This document shows, one piece after another, positions 1 to 11,239 of a DNA stretch of 39,040 nucleotides (position 1 is the first letter of the stretch; every line of letters starts with the position of its first letter). Under the pieces are notes generated by a model, which saw only the letters and a program-made list of their open reading frames with translations, did no database searches and was not told where the DNA came from. The stretch covers positions 1 to 39,040 of the forward strand of contig CAMKEX010000009.1 in assembly GCA_946411695.1 (NCBI GenBank). Reading direction: 5' to 3'. Made by a program: the position numbers and the translations under genes. This stretch comes from an uncultured Lachnospiraceae bacterium (GTDB taxonomy: Bacteria > Bacillota > Clostridia > Lachnospirales > Lachnospiraceae).

Positions 1-923
1 TCGTAGCGGATCCTTTCATGAATGAGAAGATGGAAGAGTGGGCAAAGAGCATCGGCATTGCCAGATGCACAAAGGACCCTGAAGATGTTTTCAAAGCTGA
101 CGATGTAGATGCAGTTTTCATCTGCTCCTCCACAAACACACATGCTGATTTCATGATCCGTGCAGCACAGGCCGGCAAGCATATCTTCTGCGAGAAGCCC
201 ATCGATCTGTCTGTTGCAAAGATCAACGAGGCTCTGGCAGAGGTCGCCAAGGCCGGTGTCAAGCTGCAGGTCGGTTTCGTCCGCCGTTTCGACAGAAGCC
301 ACAAGGCAGTCCGTGATGTAGTCGCTTCCGGCAAGCTGGGCAAGCCCTATGTCGTCAAGGTCTGCTCCCGCGATCCCGCTGGCCCGCCCATGTCTTATGT
401 AGCAGTCTCCGGCGGCATCTTCACCGACATGATGATCCATGACTTCGACATGGTCCGTTATCTGTCCGGCAGCGATGTTGTGGAAGTTTCCGCAACAGGC
501 GCAGTCCTGACCGATCCCGGCTATGCAGAGTATGATGATGTCGACACAGCGATCGTTACCCTGAAGTTCGAGAACGGCGCGATCGGCGTCATCGACAACT
601 GCCGCCAGGCTCCTTACGGCTATGACCAGCGCGTCGAAGTTCTCTGCGAGAAGGGTGCTGTCCAGGACAACAACCATCTTGAGAACGAAGCTTTCATCAG
701 CACTGCTGAGACAGTTGAGTCCGCTAAGCCCACATACTTCTTCCTTGAGCGCTACAATGACGCGTTCGTCGCAGAGGTGAAGGCATTCGTGGATGCAGTC
801 CTCAATGACAAGGAAGTTCCCGTAGGCGGCAAGGACGGACTTGAGCCCGTCCGTATCGCGATCGCGGCCAAGAAGTCCCTCAAGGAAGGCAGACCCGTCA
901 AGCTTTCCGAGATCGAGGCATAA
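1..923 (+). CDS. iolG: Inositol 2-dehydrogenase, copy 1 (5' truncated by window edge)
   Basis: This is the C-terminal part of a Gfo/Idh/MocA-family NAD-dependent oxidoreductase. The family enzyme oxidises myo-inositol to scyllo-inosose, the first step of inositol breakdown in the cytoplasm. The first complete codon is at position 3, and ATG 18 corresponds to residue 40 of the complete copy at 3158-4180, so about 34 residues including the Rossmann GxGxxG loop lie outside the window. The visible part contains the CEKP motif with its catalytic lysine and a D-x3-H-D segment (TDMMIHDFDM) typical of the family active site. The protein is identical to copy 2 over the shared length, and the DNA differs at only two synonymous positions (869 and 914). 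A strong terminator follows at 1008-1045, so this copy probably ends an upstream transcript. Identification is firm; exact substrate (myo- versus scyllo- or chiro-inositol) is inferred from the neighbours. Confidence 0.88.
   Translation, partial: VADPFMNEKMEEWAKSIGIARCTKDPEDVFKADDVDAVFICSSTNTHADFMIRAAQAGKHIFCEKPIDLSVAKINEALAEVAKAGVKLQVGFVRRFDRSHKAVRDVVASGKLGKPYVVKVCSRDPAGPPMSYVAVSGGIFTDMMIHDFDMVRYLSGSDVVEVSATGAVLTDPGYAEYDDVDTAIVTLKFENGAIGVIDNCRQAPYGYDQRVEVLCEKGAVQDNNHLENEAFISTAETVESAKPTYFFLERYNDAFVAEVKAFVDAVLNDKEVPVGGKDGLEPVRIAIAAKKSLKEGRPVKLSEIEA
1..923 (+). repeat. Long direct repeat, copy A (iolG)
   Basis: Bases 1-923 match 3258-4180 at a constant offset of 3257, with two differences seen (C869/T4126 and C914/T4171). 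Similarity stops immediately after the stop codon: copy A continues with GCAGGCAGATC, copy B with TGAGGCATAA. The left boundary lies outside the window. Confidence 0.95.
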
Positions 924-1322: not shown

Positions 1323-2345
1323 GTGGCAGTGACAGTTCAGCAGATTGCCGAGGCAACAGGCGTATCCAGGGGTACTGTGGATCGTGCTCTTAATAACAGG
1401 GGAAGAGTGGATCCGGAAGTTGCGGAGAAAATCCGCAGAACAGCTCTGGAAATGGGATATGTTAAAAAGCCGAGAAAGACAGGGAGCAGGAGAAAGACCT
1501 GCAGGATCGGTATTGTGACACAACTGGCAGGAGCATCATTCATGCTGGAAATCAACCGCGGAATCCATGAGGCTGCAGAGGAACTGCAGGACCGGGGCGT
1601 GGAAGTGATCCTGAAAGAAGGTATGGCTGTAGATGAGAAGGAACAGCTGGATGCGATCAACGATTTGATTAAAGAAGGGATTGACGGACTTGCCCTTATG
1701 CCTGTGGACTGTGAGGGGGTGCGCGAAAAAATCAACGACCTGATCGAACATGAGAATATTCCGGTGGTGACTTTCAACTCCGACATCGTAGGAACGAAGC
1801 GGAGCTGCTTTGTCGGCATGGACAATCACAAGAGCGGACGCACTGCGGCCGGACTGATGAAAATGATGACCGGCGGAAGCGGTAAAATTCTGGTGATCAC
1901 CGGGTATTTTACAAACCATGTTGCCAGTTCCCGTGTTGCCGGTTTCGTTGAAGAAATCAAAGTATCCTGTCCCGGGCTGGAAATCGTCGGCGTGCAGGGC
2001 AGCTTTGATGATGCTGCAGAGGTAGAGAAAATTGTAGTCAATGCAATGCGCACTGTTCCGGACCTGGACGGAATCCTTCTTGTCTCCGGCGGACAGGCCG
2101 GAATCCGAAAGGCGTTTGATGATCTGGGGCTCACAGACAGGCCGCATGTGGTCATATATGACCAGACACCCAAGAACGAACGGGCGCTCCGCGAAGATAC
2201 TGTGGATTTTCTCATCGACCAGCACGGATATGTCCAGGGCTACAGGCCGCCTCATATTCTTGCGGATCTTCTGCAGAAGAATCAGCAGCCGGAAGACGAA
2301 CGGATTCTGACAGATATTATTATCAAGACAAAATACAATCTTTGA
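1323..2345 (+). CDS. LacI-family transcriptional regulator, probable inositol-locus repressor
   Basis: This 340-residue protein has a typical LacI helix-turn-helix at residues 4-25 (VQQIAEATGVSRGTVDRALN) and a hinge region. From about residue 60 follows a periplasmic-binding-protein-like effector domain of the sugar-binding type, with features such as IYDQ and QHGYVQGY near the C-terminus. The GTG start at 1323 is chosen because a strong AGGGGGG ribosome site ends about 6 nt upstream. Family members bind a sugar or polyol and release a palindromic operator. Its place between two iolG copies and upstream of the iol operon argues for control by inositol or an early intermediate; this is inference. 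It has its own promoter (1178-1206). It is not the DeoR-type IolR of Bacillus. Confidence 0.88.
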   Translation: MAVTVQQIAEATGVSRGTVDRALNNRGRVDPEVAEKIRRTALEMGYVKKPRKTGSRRKTCRIGIVTQLAGASFMLEINRGIHEAAEELQDRGVEVILKEGMAVDEKEQLDAINDLIKEGIDGLALMPVDCEGVREKINDLIEHENIPVVTFNSDIVGTKRSCFVGMDNHKSGRTAAGLMKMMTGGSGKILVITGYFTNHVASSRVAGFVEEIKVSCPGLEIVGVQGSFDDAAEVEKIVVNAMRTVPDLDGILLVSGGQAGIRKAFDDLGLTDRPHVVIYDQTPKNERALREDTVDFLIDQHGYVQGYRPPHILADLLQKNQQPEDERILTDIIIKTKYNL

Positions 2346-3157: not shown

Positions 3158-4180
3158 ATGGGTAAAAAATTAAGAATCGGTCTTCTTGGCGGCGGACGTA
3201 TCGGCAATCTGCACGGCACGAATATCCAGAACTTTATTCCGGATGCTGAGGTCGTGGTCGTAGCGGATCCTTTCATGAATGAGAAGATGGAAGAGTGGGC
3301 AAAGAGCATCGGCATTGCCAGATGCACAAAGGACCCTGAAGATGTTTTCAAAGCTGACGATGTAGATGCAGTTTTCATCTGCTCCTCCACAAACACACAT
3401 GCTGATTTCATGATCCGTGCAGCACAGGCCGGCAAGCATATCTTCTGCGAGAAGCCCATCGATCTGTCTGTTGCAAAGATCAACGAGGCTCTGGCAGAGG
3501 TCGCCAAGGCCGGTGTCAAGCTGCAGGTCGGTTTCGTCCGCCGTTTCGACAGAAGCCACAAGGCAGTCCGTGATGTAGTCGCTTCCGGCAAGCTGGGCAA
3601 GCCCTATGTCGTCAAGGTCTGCTCCCGCGATCCCGCTGGCCCGCCCATGTCTTATGTAGCAGTCTCCGGCGGCATCTTCACCGACATGATGATCCATGAC
3701 TTCGACATGGTCCGTTATCTGTCCGGCAGCGATGTTGTGGAAGTTTCCGCAACAGGCGCAGTCCTGACCGATCCCGGCTATGCAGAGTATGATGATGTCG
3801 ACACAGCGATCGTTACCCTGAAGTTCGAGAACGGCGCGATCGGCGTCATCGACAACTGCCGCCAGGCTCCTTACGGCTATGACCAGCGCGTCGAAGTTCT
3901 CTGCGAGAAGGGTGCTGTCCAGGACAACAACCATCTTGAGAACGAAGCTTTCATCAGCACTGCTGAGACAGTTGAGTCCGCTAAGCCCACATACTTCTTC
4001 CTTGAGCGCTACAATGACGCGTTCGTCGCAGAGGTGAAGGCATTCGTGGATGCAGTCCTCAATGACAAGGAAGTTCCCGTAGGCGGCAAGGACGGACTTG
4101 AGCCCGTCCGTATCGCGATCGCGGCTAAGAAGTCCCTCAAGGAAGGCAGACCCGTCAAGCTTTCCGAGATTGAGGCATAA
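3158..4180 (+). CDS. iolG: Inositol 2-dehydrogenase, copy 2 (complete)
   Basis: This is a 340-residue Gfo/Idh/MocA oxidoreductase, close to the usual length. The NAD-binding loop is at residues 9-16 (LGGGRIGN), the catalytic lysine lies in CEKP near residue 99, and the active-site segment TDMMIHDFDM follows in the C-terminal alpha/beta domain. It should oxidise myo-inositol to 2-keto-myo-inositol with NAD, feeding IolE. The ATG at 3158 follows AGAAGGAGG at ideal distance. Copy 1 at the window start encodes the same protein over the shared length. The stop codon is followed by a second TGAGGCATAA, a 10-bp tandem echo of the gene end (4171-4190). A terminator at 4327-4372 makes this a separate transcription unit from the operon starting at 4880. 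Confidence 0.93.
   Translation: MGKKLRIGLLGGGRIGNLHGTNIQNFIPDAEVVVVADPFMNEKMEEWAKSIGIARCTKDPEDVFKADDVDAVFICSSTNTHADFMIRAAQAGKHIFCEKPIDLSVAKINEALAEVAKAGVKLQVGFVRRFDRSHKAVRDVVASGKLGKPYVVKVCSRDPAGPPMSYVAVSGGIFTDMMIHDFDMVRYLSGSDVVEVSATGAVLTDPGYAEYDDVDTAIVTLKFENGAIGVIDNCRQAPYGYDQRVEVLCEKGAVQDNNHLENEAFISTAETVESAKPTYFFLERYNDAFVAEVKAFVDAVLNDKEVPVGGKDGLEPVRIAIAAKKSLKEGRPVKLSEIEA
3258..4180 (+). repeat. Long direct repeat, copy B (iolG)
   Basis: This is the partner of 1-923. Copy B includes the complete gene, so recombination between the copies would remove exactly the 3257 bp carrying the LacI-family regulator, the candidate small RNA and the iolG copy 2 promoter, leaving one iolG. Confidence 0.95.
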
Positions 4181-4723: not shown

Positions 4724-4752
4724 TTGCACGCAACCGGTGTGCGTGCTATTCT
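4724..4752 (+). promoter_or_regulatory. Main iol operon promoter with palindromic operator in the spacer
   Basis: -35 TTGCAC (4724-4729), a 17-nt spacer and -10 TATTCT (4747-4752) predict a start near 4759. GCACGCA (4726-4732) and TGCGTGC (4740-4746) form a perfect inverted repeat that fills the space between the two hexamers, so a bound repressor would exclude polymerase. The promoter drives the transaldolase-like gene and probably iolD, iolB, iolE and the Fe-ADH. Confidence 0.7.
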
Positions 4753-4776
4753 AAAAGCACAAAGAGAGATGATTAA

Positions 4777-4807
4777 GCACGCAGAACGCACGCAACAGCA
4801 AGCGTGC
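4777..4807 (+). promoter_or_regulatory. Second operator cluster just downstream of the iol promoter
   Basis: GCACGCA occurs at 4777-4783 and again at 4788-4794, and GCACGC (4788-4793) pairs with GCGTGC (4802-4807) across 8 nt. The site lies at about +20 to +50 of the predicted transcript, a common place for a second LacI-family operator. Confidence 0.5.
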
Positions 4808-4879
4808 GGGGTGTGCATAATCCACAACATAAAATGTAAACACTATAAATTTTCTTTTCAAGAAAGAGAGGGGTAAAAG

Positions 4880-5938
4880 ATGTCTAAGTTAAACGAAATG
4901 GTTGCAACCTTCCCGCAGACCGAGTTCTGGAATGACTCCTGCAGCTGCAAAGAGCTGTCCTATGCGATCGAGAACGGCGGCTCCGGTGCAACAACCAACC
5001 CTGTTATCGTTGGTAACGTTCTGAAGAAAGAGCTTCCGGATTGGGAAGACACCATCAAGCAGGTAATCGCTGACAATCCTACATGGACAGAAGACGATGT
5101 TGCATGGGATATCATCGGCAAACTCGGTACAAAGGCTTCCAAACTCCTTCTTCCTATGTTCGAAGCTTCTCATGGTCAGAAGGGCCGCATTTCCTTCCAG
5201 ACCAATGCTAAGTATTACTGCAACAAAGACCTCATGGTCGAGCAGGCCTGCAAGCTTGCAGCTCTGGTTCCCAACAGCCAGATCAAGGCTCCTACCAGCA
5301 AAGCCGGCGTCGAGGCTTTCGAAGAGCTGACCTATCGCGGAATCTCCATCAATGCTACCGTTTCCTTCACCTGCGCACAGGCAGTCGCAGTCGGTGAGGC
5401 AGTTGAGCGCGGTCTCAAGAGAAGAGAGGCTGAAGGCCTTGATACTTCCTGGATGCACCCCGTCTGCACCATCATGATCGGCCGTACCGATGACTACCTC
5501 AAGAACGTTGTCAAGGCAAGTGATATGTGCATTCCCGCTGAGGCTCTTGATCTCGCAGGCGTAGCAGTTATGAAGAACGCTTACAAGGTTTACAAAGAGA
5601 GAGGCTTCCGCACAACTCTGCTGACCGCTGCTTACAGAAACTATCATCACTATGTTGATTTCCTCGGCGGCGACATCATTTTCACCATCACCTCTGACTG
5701 GCAGAGAAAGTTCGCTAACTGCGATTGGATGAAGATCGAGAACAACATGGACAAGCCCGTTGATGAGTTCTATCTCAACTGCCTCAAGCAGATCCCTGAG
5801 TTCATCCAGGCATATGAGCCCGACGGACTTAAGCCCGAAGAGTTCCAGCACTACGGTGCATTCCTTGCAACCATGAAGCAGTTCCTGGGCGGCTATGACA
5901 GCCTTGTCCAGCTGATCCGCGGCTACATGATCGTATAA
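4880..5938 (+). CDS. Transaldolase-family protein (class I aldolase fold) of the inositol operon
   Basis: This 352-residue protein has transaldolase hallmarks: an ATTNP motif at residues 37-41, the Schiff-base lysine K136 in QIKAPTSKAG, and ISINATVSFT at 155-164, matching the IN-x-T-x-x-FS region of transaldolases. It is the first gene of the operon behind the 4724-4752 promoter, with a GAGAGGGG ribosome site. The family either transfers dihydroxyacetone units or, in fructose-6-phosphate aldolase-like members, cleaves ketoses to free dihydroxyacetone. The exact reaction is unknown. Because no iolC kinase or iolJ aldolase is visible, I infer that it may cleave 5-dehydro-2-deoxygluconate or a related intermediate. 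An ordinary pentose-phosphate role is possible but would not explain its place in this operon. Confidence 0.8.
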   Translation: MSKLNEMVATFPQTEFWNDSCSCKELSYAIENGGSGATTNPVIVGNVLKKELPDWEDTIKQVIADNPTWTEDDVAWDIIGKLGTKASKLLLPMFEASHGQKGRISFQTNAKYYCNKDLMVEQACKLAALVPNSQIKAPTSKAGVEAFEELTYRGISINATVSFTCAQAVAVGEAVERGLKRREAEGLDTSWMHPVCTIMIGRTDDYLKNVVKASDMCIPAEALDLAGVAVMKNAYKVYKERGFRTTLLTAAYRNYHHYVDFLGGDIIFTITSDWQRKFANCDWMKIENNMDKPVDEFYLNCLKQIPEFIQAYEPDGLKPEEFQHYGAFLATMKQFLGGYDSLVQLIRGYMIV

Positions 5939-5977
5939 TCTTAAAACGGTGAAAATAACTACTATATAAAATGAACC

Positions 5978-6010
5978 GCAGCCTGCCGTGCAACCGGCAC
6001 GGCAGGCTGC
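5978..6010 (+). other. Intercistronic hairpin before iolD
   Basis: A perfect 14-bp stem, GCAGCCTGCCGTGC (5978-5991) with GCACGGCAGGCTGC (5997-6010), has a 5-nt loop and only TTTG after it. The short T-run suggests a processing or stability element, or a leaky terminator reducing expression downstream. Confidence 0.75.
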
Positions 6011-6041
6011 TTTGTAAAATCCAGGTATGGTGAGGTGTTAT

Positions 6042-7973
6042 ATGGAAAAAACTCTCAGACTGACAACTGCTCAGGCTATCGTCAAGTTCCTTGACAATCA
6101 GTATGTTCTTATGGATGGTGAAGAGACCAAGTTCGTCAATGACTTCTTCACAATCTTCGGACACGGAATCGCAGTCGGCCTCGGCGAGGCTCTTGACCGC
6201 AATCCCGGCAGCATTCACGTAATGCAGGGCCGTAATGAACAGGGTATGTGCCACGCTGCAACTGCTTTCGCAAAGCAGAGCGATCGTAAGAAGATCATCC
6301 CCTGCGCAGCTTCCGTAGGCCCCGGCTCCGCAAACATGGTTGTTGCATGCGCAACAGCTACCGTTAACAACATTCCTCTGCTGGTATTCCCTGCAGATAC
6401 ATTCGCTTCCAGACAGCCCGATCCCGTTCTGCAGCAGCTCGAGCAGTCCAACAGCCTTGCAACGACCACAAACGATGCTTTCAAGCCCGTAGTCAAATAC
6501 TGGGACCGCATCCAGAGGCCCGAGCAGCTCATGAGCGCTATGATCAATGCTATGCGCGTCCTCACAGATCCCGCCGAGACCGGTGCAGTTTCCATCGGCC
6601 TTCCTCAGGATGTTGAGGGTGAGTACTATGACTATCCCGAGAGCTTCTTCAAGAAGAGAGTTCACCGCATTACCCGTCCTGTAGCTGTACAGGAAGAGCT
6701 GGAAGATGTTGCGGCTGAAATCCTTGCTTCCAAGAAGCCCCTGGTCATTGTCGGCGGCGGCGTCCGCTACTCTCTGGCAGGTGAAGTGGTCGAGAACTTC
6801 TGCGAAGAGTTCGGCATCCCCTTCGGCGAGTCCCAGGGCGGAAAGAGCGCCTGCAAGTCCAGCCATCCTTACTGCCTCGGCGGTATCGGAGTCACCGGCA
6901 CATCCGCTTCCAACAAGCTGGCAAAGGATGCTGACTGCATCATCGCAATCGGCACCAGAATGAGTGACTTCACCACCAGCTCCAAGTGGCTCTTCCAGAA
7001 GGAAGGCGTCCGCTTTGTCTCCATCAACAACAGCCGTTATCATGCATATAAGTTCGACGCTGTCAAGGCTGTCGGCGATGCCAAGGTTACTGTCGCTGCT
7101 CTGGCTGAGATCCTTCGCGCTAAGGGTTACAAGAGTGCATACACTAACGAGATCGCTGATGCCAAGGCTGAGTGGGATGCAGAGCTTGAGCGCCTCGGCG
7201 GCATCATCTGCACAGGCGAGGACTTCGAGCCCATCATCAAGCCCAGAGATCCCAGGACTGTTCCGGAATTCGTCCGTATGTACGGCACATCCCTTACCCA
7301 GACCGCAGCGCTTGCTACCCTGCGTGCCTGCATGGGTCCCGATGACATCATCATCACTGCCGGCGGTTCCCTTCCCAGCTGCATGCAGCGTGTATGGAAG
7401 ACCGACAAGCGCGGCGGCTACCATGTAGAGTATGGCTACAGCTGCATGGGTTACGAAGTCGGCGCATCCCTCGGCGTAAAGATGGCTGAGCCCGATGTCG
7501 AAGAGTACACCTGCATCGGTGACTCCGGCTTCCAGATGCTCAACTCCGAGCTCGGCACCATCATGCAGGAGCGCCGCAAGACCAACATCCTGGTCTTCGA
7601 CAACTGCGGATTCGGCTGCATCAACAATCTGGAGATGACCCACGGTATCGGCTCCATCGCTACAGAGTTCCGTTACACCGACGGCAAGAAGCCTTGCGGA
7701 GATCTGGTTCCCACAGATTACACCAAGATCGGCGAAGCTTACGGCATGAAGACCTACTCCTGCAAGAGCGTCGAGGAGCTGCGCGATGCAATCATCGACT
7801 CCAGGAAGCAGACTGTTGCCTGCCTGTTTGACCTCAAGGTTGTTCCGAAGACCATGACTGACGGCTATGGCGCATGGTGGAACGTCGGTATGGCTATGGT
7901 CTCCGACAGCGAGAGCGTCCGTGAGGCAGCTCAGGAAGTTCTTGACCGCAGAGCTGAGGCAAGGAAGTATTGA
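6042..7973 (+). CDS. iolD: 3D-(3,5/4)-trihydroxycyclohexane-1,2-dione hydrolase
   Basis: This is a 643-residue thiamine-diphosphate enzyme of the acetolactate-synthase fold. It opens the ring of the diketo intermediate to give 5-deoxy-glucuronate, the third step of inositol catabolism. The catalytic glutamate is E66 in GRNEQGMCHAA. The C-terminal ThDP motif runs from GDSGFQML near residue 493 to CINN near 522; the usual GDG reads GDS here. The start at 6042 is chosen over the in-frame ATG at 6027 because GGTGAGG lies 6 nt upstream of 6042, whereas 6027 has no ribosome site. Length is normal for IolD. It is followed by iolB and iolE, whose products act directly after and before it. Confidence 0.95.
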   Translation: MEKTLRLTTAQAIVKFLDNQYVLMDGEETKFVNDFFTIFGHGIAVGLGEALDRNPGSIHVMQGRNEQGMCHAATAFAKQSDRKKIIPCAASVGPGSANMVVACATATVNNIPLLVFPADTFASRQPDPVLQQLEQSNSLATTTNDAFKPVVKYWDRIQRPEQLMSAMINAMRVLTDPAETGAVSIGLPQDVEGEYYDYPESFFKKRVHRITRPVAVQEELEDVAAEILASKKPLVIVGGGVRYSLAGEVVENFCEEFGIPFGESQGGKSACKSSHPYCLGGIGVTGTSASNKLAKDADCIIAIGTRMSDFTTSSKWLFQKEGVRFVSINNSRYHAYKFDAVKAVGDAKVTVAALAEILRAKGYKSAYTNEIADAKAEWDAELERLGGIICTGEDFEPIIKPRDPRTVPEFVRMYGTSLTQTAALATLRACMGPDDIIITAGGSLPSCMQRVWKTDKRGGYHVEYGYSCMGYEVGASLGVKMAEPDVEEYTCIGDSGFQMLNSELGTIMQERRKTNILVFDNCGFGCINNLEMTHGIGSIATEFRYTDGKKPCGDLVPTDYTKIGEAYGMKTYSCKSVEELRDAIIDSRKQTVACLFDLKVVPKTMTDGYGAWWNVGMAMVSDSESVREAAQEVLDRRAEARKY

Positions 7974-8013
7974 TATCCAGGGTTAAAACCCATGAATGAG
8001 TAATTAAATGGCA

Positions 8014-8056
8014 GACAGCGGAAGGGAATCTGGCAACAGGCTTACCTCCCGCTGTC
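8014..8056 (+). other. Intercistronic hairpin between iolD and iolB
   Basis: GACAGCGGAAGG (8014-8025) pairs with CCTCCCGCTGTC (8045-8056) with one mismatch and a 19-nt loop. No T-run follows, so it is not a normal terminator; mRNA processing or stability is the likelier role. Confidence 0.6.
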
Positions 8057-8124
8057 TCCAGACCGGTTATACAATATGACCGGCCTGAATAATGCCTATA
8101 TAAATGAAAGAGGTTAAACTCAAT

Positions 8125-8934
8125 ATGGTAGAAAAGAAATTATTCGGATATCCCACATTCGACGAGAATGGCGAGGAGATTCTTTCCACTTATGACAACG
8201 AATATCGCGACATGCTGATGGATGTCCGTCTCTATCGTATGGCTGCAGGCAGCACAAGAGAGTTCTGCAGAGAAGGCGAAGAAATCGCAGTCCTGCTTCT
8301 TTCCGGTGAGATCACCTTTAAGTGGGCGGAAGGCGAGAAGACTGTCTCCAGAAAAGACGTCTTCACAGAAGGCCCCTGGGCACTTCATGTCTCCGGCGGC
8401 AAGCAGATCACTGTCACAGCAGTGAAGGGTGCAGAGATCCTTGTTCAGTGCACACAGAACGAGAAGGATTTCGCTTCCCGTCTGTACGCTCCCGAGGATG
8501 CTCCCTGGGCATACTCCGGCGCAAAGGGCAAATTCGGCGACACCGCAAACCGTCAGGTCAACACCATCTTTGATCATGACATCTGCCCTGAGTCCAACAT
8601 GGTTCTCGGCGAAGTTATGAATGACCGCGGCAACTGGTCCGGATATCTTCCTCACAGACATCCTCAGCCCGAGCTCTACTACTTCAAATTTGACCGCCCT
8701 GAAGGCTTCGGCGCCAGCTTCGTCGGCGACGATGTTTTCAAGAGCGTTGACAACAGCTTCTCCGCTATTCCCGGCGGAAGGCTTCATCCTCAGTCAGCTG
8801 CACCCGGCTATCTGATGTATACCTGCTGGATGATCCGTCATCTGCCCGGAAATCCCTGGCTGCAGACTGACCGCTGCGAAGATGATGCTTATGTATGGCT
8901 GCACGACGCAAAGATTGTCAACCAGCCCTGGTAA
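8125..8934 (+). CDS. iolB: 5-deoxy-glucuronate isomerase
   Basis: This 269-residue bicupin protein isomerises 5-deoxy-glucuronate, the IolD product, to 2-deoxy-5-keto-gluconate. The metal-binding cupin signature is visible as LPHRHPQPELYYF around residues 175-187, with H177, H179 and E183 as likely ligands. A second region near GGRLHPQSAAPGYLMYTCW matches the conserved IolB C-terminal half. The start at 8125 is preferred over the in-frame ATG at 8104 because AAAGAGG lies upstream of 8125, although the 11-12 nt spacing is long; the 8104 start has no ribosome site. It lies in the operon between iolD and iolE. Confidence 0.92.
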   Translation: MVEKKLFGYPTFDENGEEILSTYDNEYRDMLMDVRLYRMAAGSTREFCREGEEIAVLLLSGEITFKWAEGEKTVSRKDVFTEGPWALHVSGGKQITVTAVKGAEILVQCTQNEKDFASRLYAPEDAPWAYSGAKGKFGDTANRQVNTIFDHDICPESNMVLGEVMNDRGNWSGYLPHRHPQPELYYFKFDRPEGFGASFVGDDVFKSVDNSFSAIPGGRLHPQSAAPGYLMYTCWMIRHLPGNPWLQTDRCEDDAYVWLHDAKIVNQPW

Positions 8935-8951
8935 AAATTTCATTCCGGCGG

Positions 8952-8980
8952 GCCGGATTAAACGGGGGTTTAAATCCGGC
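8952..8980 (+). other. Intercistronic hairpin between iolB and iolE
   Basis: GCCGGATTAAAC (8952-8963) pairs with GTTTAAATCCGGC (8968-8980) with one bulged base and a 4-nt G loop. There is no downstream T-run. It is one of four hairpins that separate consecutive iol genes. Confidence 0.65.
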
Positions 8981-9047
8981 ATACGTTAACAAATGACATG
9001 TACGATAATTAATGGGGAGGGTACTAAGACCCCGGAAAGGATAAAGC

Positions 9048-9947
9048 ATGGCAACTCTTAATAAAGATCTGGTAAAACTGGGAATCGCTCCGATCGGCTG
9101 GACAAACGACGATATGCCTGAGCTTGGCGCAGAGAATACCTTCCAGCAGACCATCAGTGAGATGGCTCTCGCAGGCTTCAAGGGCAGCGAAGTCGGCGGC
9201 CACTATCCCACAGACAAGTACGAGCTGAAGAAAGCTCTTGACCTTCGTGACATGGTCATCTGCAACCAGTGGTTCTCTTCCTTCCTGCTGACAAAGCCCT
9301 ATGAGGAAGTCGAGAAAGAGTTTGTCAAACAGTGTGATTTCCTGCACTATGTAGGCGCCCGCGTCATCGGCGCTTCCGAGCAGAGCTACAGCATCCAGGG
9401 CAAGCCCCAGCCCATCCTGGAAGGCAAGTATGTCATGAACGACGACGAGTGGGAGACTCTGACCACCGGTCTCAGCAAACTGGGTAAGGTTGCTAAGGAA
9501 ATGGATATGACTCTTACATTCCATCATCACATGGGCACTGTTGTCCAGACAGAGGAAGAGATCGACCGCTTCATGGATATGGTAGATCCCAACTATGTAT
9601 TCCTTCTCTTCGACAGCGGCCACTGCTCTTATGCAGACATCGACCCCATCAAGGTTCTGGGCAAATATATTGACCGCACACGCCACATCCACCTCAAGGA
9701 CCTTCGCCGCAGCGTCGTAGCTGAGGCTCGTGCAAACAAGTGGAGCTTCCTTGAAGGCGTCCGCAAGGGCACATTCACTGTTCCCGGCGACGGCGATGTC
9801 GACTTCGAGCCCATCTTCCAGATCATCCAGGATTCCGGCTACAAGGGCTGGGTTGTTGTCGAAGCTGAGCAGGATCCCGCTCTGGCGAATCCGTTCGAGT
9901 ATGCTCTGAAGGCAAGAAAGTACATCGCAGAGCACACAGGTCTTTAA
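9048..9947 (+). CDS. iolE: Inosose (2-keto-myo-inositol) dehydratase
   Basis: This is a 299-residue TIM-barrel protein of the xylose-isomerase-like fold and the expected IolE length. It dehydrates scyllo-inosose, the IolG product, to the diketone used by IolD. It opens with the IolE-typical LGIAPIGWTNDD (11-22). Metal-site segments follow as FHHHMGT (158-164), FDSGHC (188-193) and RHIHLKD, ending with WVVVEAEQD. The ATG at 9048 has GGAAAGGA upstream. The same CCCCGGAAAGGA string precedes the next gene. The operon order iolD-iolB-iolE-ADH indicates co-expression. Confidence 0.94.
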   Translation: MATLNKDLVKLGIAPIGWTNDDMPELGAENTFQQTISEMALAGFKGSEVGGHYPTDKYELKKALDLRDMVICNQWFSSFLLTKPYEEVEKEFVKQCDFLHYVGARVIGASEQSYSIQGKPQPILEGKYVMNDDEWETLTTGLSKLGKVAKEMDMTLTFHHHMGTVVQTEEEIDRFMDMVDPNYVFLLFDSGHCSYADIDPIKVLGKYIDRTRHIHLKDLRRSVVAEARANKWSFLEGVRKGTFTVPGDGDVDFEPIFQIIQDSGYKGWVVVEAEQDPALANPFEYALKARKYIAEHTGL

Positions 9948-9972
9948 TCTTTAATTTTAAAATATTGTTCAT

Positions 9973-10020
9973 GGCCCGTTGTACATGGACATGGCTGCAT
10001 GTCATCCATGACCGCGGGCC
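9973..10020 (+). other. Intercistronic hairpin between iolE and the Fe-ADH gene
   Basis: GGCCCG (9973-9978) pairs with CGGGCC (10015-10020), and an inner CATGGACATG/CATGTCATCCATG arm can form. No T-run follows. Confidence 0.55.
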
Positions 10021-10084
10021 TGAGCAAAAAGGGATATAGCAAGAAGTGAGGGGACGTTGCAGCTCCCCGGAAAGGACTTACAGA

Positions 10085-11239
10085 ATGGCAAACGTATTAT
10101 TGGTTCCTCATCAGATTTTCACCGGAGAAGGTGCTCTGACTAAGGCAGGCCCTTCCATCTGTGCGCTTGGCAAGAAGGCTCTCATCGTGACTGATCCCTT
10201 CATGATCAAGTTCGGCAACGTAGCAAAGGTTGAGGACATGCTCAAGAGCAACAATGCTCCTTACGCTGTTTTCTCCGATATCACCGGCGAGCCCACCGAC
10301 AAGATGGTTGAGGCTGCAGTGGAAATGTACAAGGCTGAAGGCTGCGATTACATGATCGCTCTCGGCGGCGGCAGCTGCATCGATACCATGAAGGCCTGCG
10401 CAGTCGTGGCTGCAGGCGGCGGCGCGATCACAGACTACATGGGCCGCAGCATTGAAGAGGACGTGGCTCCCATGGTCGCAATCCCCACAACAGCAGGCAC
10501 CGGCTCCGAGGCAACCAGAGTCACCATCATCGCTGACACTGTGAACAAGGTAAAGATGATGCTGTTCGGACCCAGCATTGTTCCTCCCGTAGCAGTCGTT
10601 GATCCTCAGTTCACCATGACTGCTCCGCCTTCTGTTACCGCCAACACCGGCCTTGACGCCCTCTGCCACTGCATGGAAGCTTATACCTCCAGACTGGCAC
10701 AGCCGCTGACAGATACCTTCGCACTTTCTGCTGTCAAGCGTATCGTTGCAAACCTTTCCACTTGCTATCATGATGGCAAGAACGTGGAAGCAAGGGCTCA
10801 GATGTCCATCGCTGCTCTCGAGGCAGGTATTGCGTTCACAAACGCTTCCGTTACCATCATCCACGGCATGAGCCGTCCCATCGGCGCTCTGTTCCATGTT
10901 CCTCACGGCACATCCAACGCTATGCTGATCAAGGTCTGCCTGCCCTTCATGATTACCGGCTGCTATCCTCGTTTCGCAGATCTGGGCAAGGCCATCGGCG
11001 TTGCAGCAGACACTGATGATGACAAGACCGCAGCTGAGAAGTTCATGGCTAAGGTTATGTCCATGGTCGACGAGATGGGTATCCCCACTCCCGAGCAGTT
11101 CGGCATCAACAAAGAGGAGTTCTTCGCAAACCTCGAGAAGATGGCAGACGATGCTCTGACCAGCGGCAGCCCTCAGAACACATGGCATCAGCCCACCAAG
11201 GAAGAGCTGATCGACCTGTACAAGAAGCTCTGGGACTAA
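10085..11239 (+). CDS. Iron-dependent alcohol dehydrogenase of the inositol operon
   Basis: This 384-residue group III Fe-ADH has an NAD-binding GGGSCID at residues 94-100 and PTTAGTGSE at 134-142. The metal ligands D191 and H195 (GLDALCHCMEAY), H260 and H274 (IIHGMSRPIGALFHVPHG) are all present. The start at 10085 has AAAGGA 8 nt upstream; the in-frame ATG at 10046 lacks a ribosome site. Relatives reduce lactaldehyde, 3-hydroxypropionaldehyde or dihydroxyacetone, or act on 3-hydroxypropionate/malonate semialdehyde. As last gene of the iol operon it may reduce malonate semialdehyde to 3-hydroxypropionate, disposing of electrons, in place of the oxidative IolA; this is inference. A bidirectional terminator follows at 11398-11434. 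Confidence 0.9.
   Translation: MANVLLVPHQIFTGEGALTKAGPSICALGKKALIVTDPFMIKFGNVAKVEDMLKSNNAPYAVFSDITGEPTDKMVEAAVEMYKAEGCDYMIALGGGSCIDTMKACAVVAAGGGAITDYMGRSIEEDVAPMVAIPTTAGTGSEATRVTIIADTVNKVKMMLFGPSIVPPVAVVDPQFTMTAPPSVTANTGLDALCHCMEAYTSRLAQPLTDTFALSAVKRIVANLSTCYHDGKNVEARAQMSIAALEAGIAFTNASVTIIHGMSRPIGALFHVPHGTSNAMLIKVCLPFMITGCYPRFADLGKAIGVAADTDDDKTAAEKFMAKVMSMVDEMGIPTPEQFGINKEEFFANLEKMADDALTSGSPQNTWHQPTKEELIDLYKKLWD

Follow-up and report, generated by a model that had tools for sequence, protein, structure and literature searches.

We analysed a stretch of 39,040 nucleotides (the window; bases 1-39040 of contig C9, CAMKEX010000009.1) from the genome of an uncultured Lachnospiraceae bacterium (GCA_946411695.1; 3.71 Mb in 301 contigs, 90.5% complete). 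The first base of the window is base 1 of the contig. The window harbors an operon predicted to serve fermentative inositol breakdown, in which a promoter and operator region (4724-4807) is followed by the genes for a transaldolase-family enzyme (TAL), iolD, iolB, iolE and an iron-containing alcohol dehydrogenase (Fe-ADH), all on the forward strand. We suggest that TAL probably makes the carbon-carbon cut that is normally made after a kinase step. In brief, iolG (3158..4180, forward strand) encodes an inositol 2-dehydrogenase (TIGR04380, 449 bits, cut-off 355), iolD (6042..7973) is assigned by TIGR04377 (858 bits, cut-off 715) and iolE (9048..9947) encodes an inosose dehydratase (TIGR04379, 397 bits, cut-off 290). 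All three products thus pass the NCBIfam equivalog cut-offs by which the canonical iol pathway is recognized, and a first-pass annotation made from the letters of this DNA had named them and their order correctly. Its iolB (8104..8934) is a divergent one, scoring 167 bits against 24 on Pfam KduI/IolB and 94 bits on TIGR04378, under the cut-off of 205. Judged by these matches, IolG, IolE, IolD and the IolB-type isomerase are on paper enough to take inositol to 2-deoxy-5-keto-D-gluconate (DKG).

The TAL gene (4880..5938) encodes a protein of 352 residues that belongs to Pfam TAL_FSA (PF00923, 126.5 bits against 27) and falls under the cut-offs of all nine NCBIfam models matched. A MAFFT alignment of 47 TALs with TalB and FsaA was used to compare the active sites. 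K136, proposed in the first-pass annotation as the Schiff-base residue, aligns with the Schiff-base lysine K132 of TalB. The TalB residues D17, N35, K132, N154, T156, R181 and R228, which belong to the active site of transaldolase, are retained in 47/47 TALs, with R202 and R253 of the window's TAL at the positions of R181 and R228. The acid/base Glu96 of transaldolase (EC 2.2.1.2) is Gln in 47/47 TALs (Q107 here), so that this mark of the enzyme is lacking, and F178 and S226 of TalB are replaced by Met and Ala, again in every TAL. The phosphate site accordingly keeps both arginines and has lost its serine.

FsaA also carries Gln at the Glu96 position, and this residue (Gln59), a mark of fructose-6-phosphate aldolase (FSA), is shared by TAL. 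The other marks of FSA, Tyr131 and a chain of about 220 residues, are not: TAL has Met199 and 352 residues. The pairing of Tyr131 with Met199 comes from a hand alignment of the VGR/VNR motif, as FsaA is gapped there in the MAFFT alignment. An AlphaFold2 model of TAL has a mean pLDDT of 97.4, and its best solved fold match is the transaldolase of C. glutamicum (3r5e, TM 0.85). On the residues common to all 47 aligned members, TAL is a distinct family. A separate FSA-like TAL fragment, matching FsaA at 41%, is found on contig C160 of the same genome. A passage of PMC13259622 cites Stellmacher et al. for the finding that exchange of the residues surrounding the catalytic water converts aldolase into transaldolase activity and back.

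The Fe-ADH gene (10085..11239; Pfam Fe-ADH) encodes 384 residues. The first-pass annotation had credited it with all metal ligands, and D191, H195, H260 and H274 occupy the positions of the Fe-ADH ligands. The protein reaches the cut-off of none of the 17 NCBIfam models that it matched, and the family models therefore leave its substrate open. We propose that it is a malonate semialdehyde reductase.

Beside the operon the window has no iolC, iolJ or iolA, as had been noted. That the organism lacks iolC and iolJ is refuted by the rest of the genome, which encodes IolC (G000:C2:24380-25339, 372 bits, cut-off 300) and an IolJ-like class II aldolase (G000:C54:15680-16507). The latter shares 60% identity with an aldolase whose gene is a neighbor of iolC and MMSDH in the relative G016; the NCBIfam models do not tell IolJ apart from the remaining class II aldolases and do not resolve the substrate here. 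The IolJ-like search covered 62 of the 99 relatives and left out G038, G047, G055, G056, G060 and G095. The expected lack of iolA did hold, at the 90.5% completeness of the own genome, with 0 matches to MMSDH/IolA at E <= 0.001, and a DhaK is encoded on contig C133. Upstream of the own iolC (L098, 2447-6180 and 6456-8970) are genes for a sugar-type ABC transporter (binding protein, ATPase and permease), a LacI regulator and a ribokinase-type kinase, which are possibly further parts of inositol uptake.

The promoter of the operon reads TTGCAC-17-TATTCT (4724..4752, forward strand), and position 4724, where the region described in the first-pass annotation begins, is its -35 box. A putative operator, the 21 bp palindrome GCACGC-N9-GCGTGC (4726-4746), overlaps the -35 box and the spacer, and a second operator-like site with N8 spacing was read in the sequence at 4788..4807. 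The motif was first taken from the window itself and then scanned, as GCACGC-N(7-11)-GCGTGC, over 502 kb of same-genus loci. This found 23 sites where base composition predicts 0.24, and every one of them is intergenic: 17 near TAL, 4 near iolC and 2 between LacI and iolG. The operator precedes TAL in 12/12 same-genus genomes that have this operon type and upstream sequence (G000, the own genome, and G008, G009, G010, G011, G014, G018, G027, G029, G038, G047 and G055). These share one promoter and operator layout, and the 12 copies rule out a chance or miscalled operon.

The same operator precedes iolC in 9/9 of those genomes with an iolC start and upstream DNA (G000, G008, G009, G010, G011, G027, G029, G038 and G047); in the own genome it lies 80 bp 5' of the iolC start codon. 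In all 12 TAL and 9 iolC promoters the site starts at the third base of TTGCAC, and a -10-like hexamer directly follows the operator, TATTCT and variants at TAL and TAATAT and variants at iolC. We did not find the operator at the IolJ-like gene (0/8 loci, with 216 to 10130 bases of upstream DNA), at DhaK (8 loci of 7 genomes, one of which, G018:C100, has only 4 upstream bases) or in the loci of G004, G012, G016 and G056 (G004 lacks TAL and G056 has 29 bases before it). Among 70 other loci (L171-L240) only the same-genus contig L208 carries it, and the shared regulation is therefore shown within the genus only. Because the same operator stands at both TAL and iolC and none stands at the IolJ-like gene, IolC would, as far as the operator tells, belong with the TAL operon in this organism, and the IolJ-like gene would not. 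The first-pass annotation had proposed a kinase-free pathway here and had named iolC and iolJ co-induced with the operon as evidence to the contrary. Half of that evidence was found, in that IolC shares the operator and the IolJ-like gene is present without it, and for this organism a kinase-free pathway is not supported. It may hold for TAL genomes that lack IolC.

A scan of genome contigs for TAL gave 344 relatives, and the best 80 loci were analysed with their flanks. Within these best 80 of 344, the family occurs in Bacillota, Spirochaetota, one Fusobacteriota metagenome-assembled genome (MAG) and one Deinococcota MAG; the loci with the closest TALs are from uncultured Lachnospiraceae MAGs (rumen and gut by name) and Sarcina sp. 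DSM 11001. An iolD open reading frame (ORF) is present in 36 of the best 80 of 344 loci and an iolC ORF in 16, and 62/80 hold iolD or an aldehyde partner. These ORF-based linkage counts are lower bounds, the ORF caller having missed TAL and iolC of L182. An aldehyde enzyme is encoded within three co-directional genes of TAL in 41/80 loci, namely 31 Fe-ADH, 5 MMSDH and 5 SauS-like enzymes. In L221 the SauS-like enzyme reaches 593.5 bits, where the cut-off for acylating sulfoacetaldehyde dehydrogenase is 600; sulfoacetaldehyde corresponds to malonate semialdehyde with a sulfonate in place of the carboxylate. In four Spirochaetota loci (L225, L228, L239 and L240) a SauS-like acylating aldehyde dehydrogenase directly follows TAL. 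On the opposite strand of L228, Pfam assigns a carboxyltransferase and the beta subunit of a sodium-pumping decarboxylase; these would hint that malonyl-CoA is decarboxylated there with coupled pumping of ions.

Closer to the window, 23 of the 99 relatives searched match TAL, 19 as close family members and 4 weakly or at 29% (G001, G041, G085 and G097). The Fe-ADH is seen in the operon of nine same-genus genomes (G000, G008, G010, G011, G014, G018, G029, G038 and G060), and 0/9 have MMSDH over the cut-off. The contigs of G009, G027, G047 and G055 end before the Fe-ADH point, and MMSDH is over the cut-off in 0/4. No Fe-ADH was seen beside TAL in G012, G016, G056, G077 and G095, and MMSDH is over the cut-off in 5/5, near TAL in four and on another contig in G077. 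In G065 the end of the contig truncates TAL, a 31% Fe-ADH homologue lies upstream and no MMSDH exceeds the cut-off; same-genus gene calling found little in this locus (L096).

Genome-wide searches covered 50 of the 80 loci, in 49 genomes. IolD was found at E <= 1e-120 in 29/49 (27 over the cut-off) and IolC over the cut-off in 15/49. The 29 genomes with both TAL and IolD comprise 12 with IolC over the cut-off, one (G142) with a truncated IolC beside iolD and 16 with none. Among these 16 are Petroclostridium sp. X23 (titled complete genome), Clostridium nigeriense, Anaerotalea alkaliphila and Alkalispirochaeta alkalica; 11 have iolD in the TAL locus, eight on the same strand and three on the other. 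At the Petroclostridium locus, SauS-like-iolB-iolD-TAL-iolE-iolG, no kinase was called. As a control, 398 genomes of the phylum with a completeness of 90% or more were searched, of which 17 encode IolD; besides the own genome none of the other 16 has TAL at E <= 1e-20, a threshold passed by ORFs in 79/80 TAL loci (weakest 2.6e-72). IolC is over the cut-off in 15/16 of these, or 17/18 with G073 and G097, which have IolD and IolC and no TAL. The difference between 12/29 (13 with the truncated gene) and 17/18 gives a Fisher p of 2.3e-4 (5.4e-4 with the truncated gene), for samples that are not matched for kinship and with the completeness of the 49 TAL genomes not given. In the own genus, G018 (97% complete) has the operon, no IolC over the cut-off, no MMSDH match and class II aldolases at generic level only (best 3.9e-41).

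Based on these observations, we propose that TAL binds DKG in its unphosphorylated form. Numbered from the ketone end, DKG is HOCH2-CO-CHOH-CHOH-CH2-COO-, a ketose that is D-threo at C3 and C4 as fructose is and carries a carboxylate where fructose 6-phosphate has its phosphate; the two conserved arginines could hold this carboxylate. K136 would form a Schiff base with the keto group, and the C3-C4 bond would be cut to leave a bound dihydroxyacetone unit and OHC-CH2-COO-, malonate semialdehyde, which would depart and be reduced to 3-hydroxypropionate by Fe-ADH. Relatives have MMSDH or a SauS-like acylating dehydrogenase in the place of Fe-ADH. The bound unit may be released, or handed to an aldose phosphate so that fructose 6-phosphate is formed, as happens in the sulfo-transaldolase pathway. 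The first-pass annotation had passed free dihydroxyacetone to a kinase. A DhaK is indeed encoded, but it lacks the operator, and DhaK was found in 15/25 genomes searched, the other 10 being all IolC-less. Transfer to a sugar phosphate is therefore an alternative to free release, and in those ten genomes transfer is favored, or another kinase; its presence in 15/25 does not decide between release and transfer. Energy does not decide the route, as the ATP cost is equal whether phosphate is spent before the cut by IolC, on dihydroxyacetone or on fructose 6-phosphate. In the own organism a phosphorylated branch of IolC and an aldolase would probably run in parallel, because IolC carries the same operator; in TAL genomes without IolC, TAL would be the exit from DKG.

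On balance we lean, by a modest margin over even chances, towards a TAL that takes the dihydroxyacetone unit off unphosphorylated DKG while Fe-ADH reduces malonate semialdehyde, beside a co-regulated IolC branch. Comparative support and the lack of an MMSDH match in the own genome favor the earlier suggestion that TAL cleaves the pathway ketose and Fe-ADH consumes its aldehyde. A broader version is put forward tentatively, as one that may well prove wrong: a widespread inositol lower pathway of anaerobes, the counterpart of sulfo-TAL, in which this dedicated PF00923 family would move dihydroxyacetone from unphosphorylated DKG to glyceraldehyde 3-phosphate, giving fructose 6-phosphate and malonate semialdehyde without IolC, IolJ or dihydroxyacetone kinase, and a partner enzyme would turn the semialdehyde into 3-hydroxypropionate, acetyl-CoA or malonyl-CoA.

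Several observations weigh against cleavage of free DKG as the general role of TAL. IolC shares the operator in 9/9 genomes checked, which is hard to explain if TAL works alone. Among 14 TAL genomes of the own genus or order with IolD over the cut-off, IolC is over the cut-off in 8 and in two pieces in G010, and most thus keep it; over the cut-off there is none in 5 (G014, G018, G055, G077 and G095). Twelve Selenomonadaceae/Selenomonadales loci hold iolJ-like, TAL, iolC, iolB and iolD genes together, so TAL adds to the kinase route there. G012 and G016 have iolJ-like, iolC, MMSDH and TAL genes and no IolD over the cut-off. Neither iolD nor an aldehyde enzyme is nearby in 18/80 loci. Finally, IolD is missing at E <= 1e-120 from 20/49 TAL genomes. 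Of these, 12 are Erysipelotrichaceae/Erysipelotrichia, and many have TAL-ADH next to phosphotransferase system (PTS) genes; the family therefore has another substrate somewhere.

Some of these loci deserve a short description. In L172 (G016) and L173 (G012), the iolJ-like, iolC, MMSDH and TAL genes form one operon adjoining a DUF362 protein; with IolD without a match over the cut-off genome-wide, this would be a lower pathway fed by some other source. TAL-ADH pairs in genomes without IolD (L174, L178, L194, L198, L202 and L206, from Erysipelotrichaceae and one unclassified Firmicutes) have PTS, class II aldolase and RpiB-like isomerase genes as neighbors and in some cases an IolB-like cupin. 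By gene content, these Erysipelotrichaceae-type TAL-ADH-PTS loci are a second context for the family.

The strongest competing explanation is that TAL replaces IolJ and not IolC, so that IolC would phosphorylate DKG and TAL would cleave the 6-phosphate to dihydroxyacetone phosphate and malonate semialdehyde. It gains from the operator common to IolC and TAL and found at 0/8 IolJ-like loci, and from the adjacency of iolC and TAL in G056 and the Selenomonadales loci. We consider it unlikely. Transaldolases and FSA bind the free hydroxymethyl group next to the ketone, and the phosphate would sit on just that carbon; moreover, 16-17 of the 29 genomes with TAL and IolD have no IolC over the cut-off, and an IolJ-like aldolase already shares the operon in the Selenomonadales loci and in G012/G016. 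At the end of the G056 contig (L097, 1-1081), TAL matches as two overlapping pieces, one with stops, before an intact iolC; this reads as either decay or an assembly error.

Somewhat less likely again is that TAL acts on another C6-carboxylate ketose, for instance an isomer derived from a different inositol or a hexuronate ketose like fructuronate, which would make the link to myo-inositol indirect. The Erysipelotrichaceae TAL-ADH pairs without IolD, beside PTS genes and some with an IolB-like cupin, would fit such a substrate, as would Pfam domains of mannitol-dehydrogenase-type reductases and altronate hydrolase found about 7 kb on in L174, on the same strand. Set against this are the tight linkage of TAL to iolD, iolB and iolE, seen in several lineages, the presence of one operator at both TAL and iolC, and a tree in which iol-linked rows fall among the Erysipelotrichaceae rows as well as apart from them. 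An ordinary pentose-phosphate transaldolase, co-expressed since C3 units are all that growth on inositol provides, would account for the fold and most catalytic residues, but we regard it as very improbable, weakened as it is by the Gln and Ala at TalB E96 and S226 in 47/47 TALs, by the second, FSA-like TAL of the own genome and by a linkage to iol or aldehyde-enzyme genes across phyla that is unexpected for a housekeeping gene.

Upstream of the TAL operon, two near-identical iolG genes (18-923 and 3158-4180) flank a LacI gene; the first copy (18..923, forward strand) has lost its 5' end to the contig start, and the two differ by 2 mismatches over window bases 1-923. The same iolG-LacI-iolG arrangement occurs in G027 and G055. 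The LacI-family regulator (1323..2345, forward strand; Pfam LacI and Peripla_BP_4) has a periplasmic-binding-type sensor domain and is, from its domains and position, a probable iol repressor; a LacI relative lies upstream of TAL in the 8 same-genus loci with enough upstream DNA (the window, L081 and L084-L089). Reading by eye of the gap between TAL and iolD (5939-6042) revealed a strong inverted repeat without a T-run (5978..6010, forward strand), which could separate the transcript levels of the two genes. Past Fe-ADH follow an Rrf2 regulator on the opposite strand and a class-V aminotransferase.

In bacterial inositol breakdown the aldolase step is a recognized gap: in a portion of PMC9007349, an aldolase, either known or proposed, is present in 18/26 inositol users. 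A survey (PMC9430895, in the relevant passage) demands three of iolB/C/D/E and puts a missing fourth down to incomplete genomes, assembly errors or frameshifts as possibilities. We found no transaldolase described for inositol breakdown in the open-licence PMC titles and abstract openings searched. If our proposal is true, a TAL-type enzyme explains why some anaerobes with IolD have no IolC, and predictions would change as to which organisms ferment inositol and phytate from the diet and what they make of them (3-hydroxypropionate, acetate).

The operon resembles the canonical iol pathway of Bacillus subtilis (iolABCDEFGHIJ) in IolG, IolE, IolD and a divergent IolB, with IolC and an IolJ-like gene on other contigs, and differs from it in having TAL and Fe-ADH in the operon and no MMSDH/IolA match in the genome. 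TAL shares with the DUF2090 alternative DKG-phosphate aldolase the role of a non-IolJ aldolase for the same pathway gap; DUF2090 is of another protein family, occurs as a fusion with IolC and is suggested, in the section of PMC9007349 concerned, to act on the phosphorylated substrate. The reductive fate of malonate semialdehyde proposed here is that of the inositol to 3-hydroxypropionate pathway of Mitsuokella jalaludinii, from which this end product is already known; in passages of that paper the reductase is assigned to 2-hydroxy-3-oxopropionate reductase MJ_1291, and its main text has no word starting with 'aldolase'. MAGs of other Selenomonadaceae have the TAL cluster together with Fe-ADH. 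FsaA is like TAL in the Schiff-base Lys and the Gln at the TalB E96 position, whereas TAL has 352 residues for 220, Met for Tyr131 and Arg for Lys168. In the sulfo-TAL pathway (sulfofructose transaldolase SqvA/SftT), as outlined in part of PMC9594981, a PF00923 enzyme cleaves an unphosphorylated C6-anionic ketose and partner enzymes oxidize or reduce the aldehyde. The solved BmSF-TAL chain has 226 residues against 352 in the window's TAL, whose proposed substrate would differ in carrying a carboxylate and in being 5-deoxy in ketose numbering.

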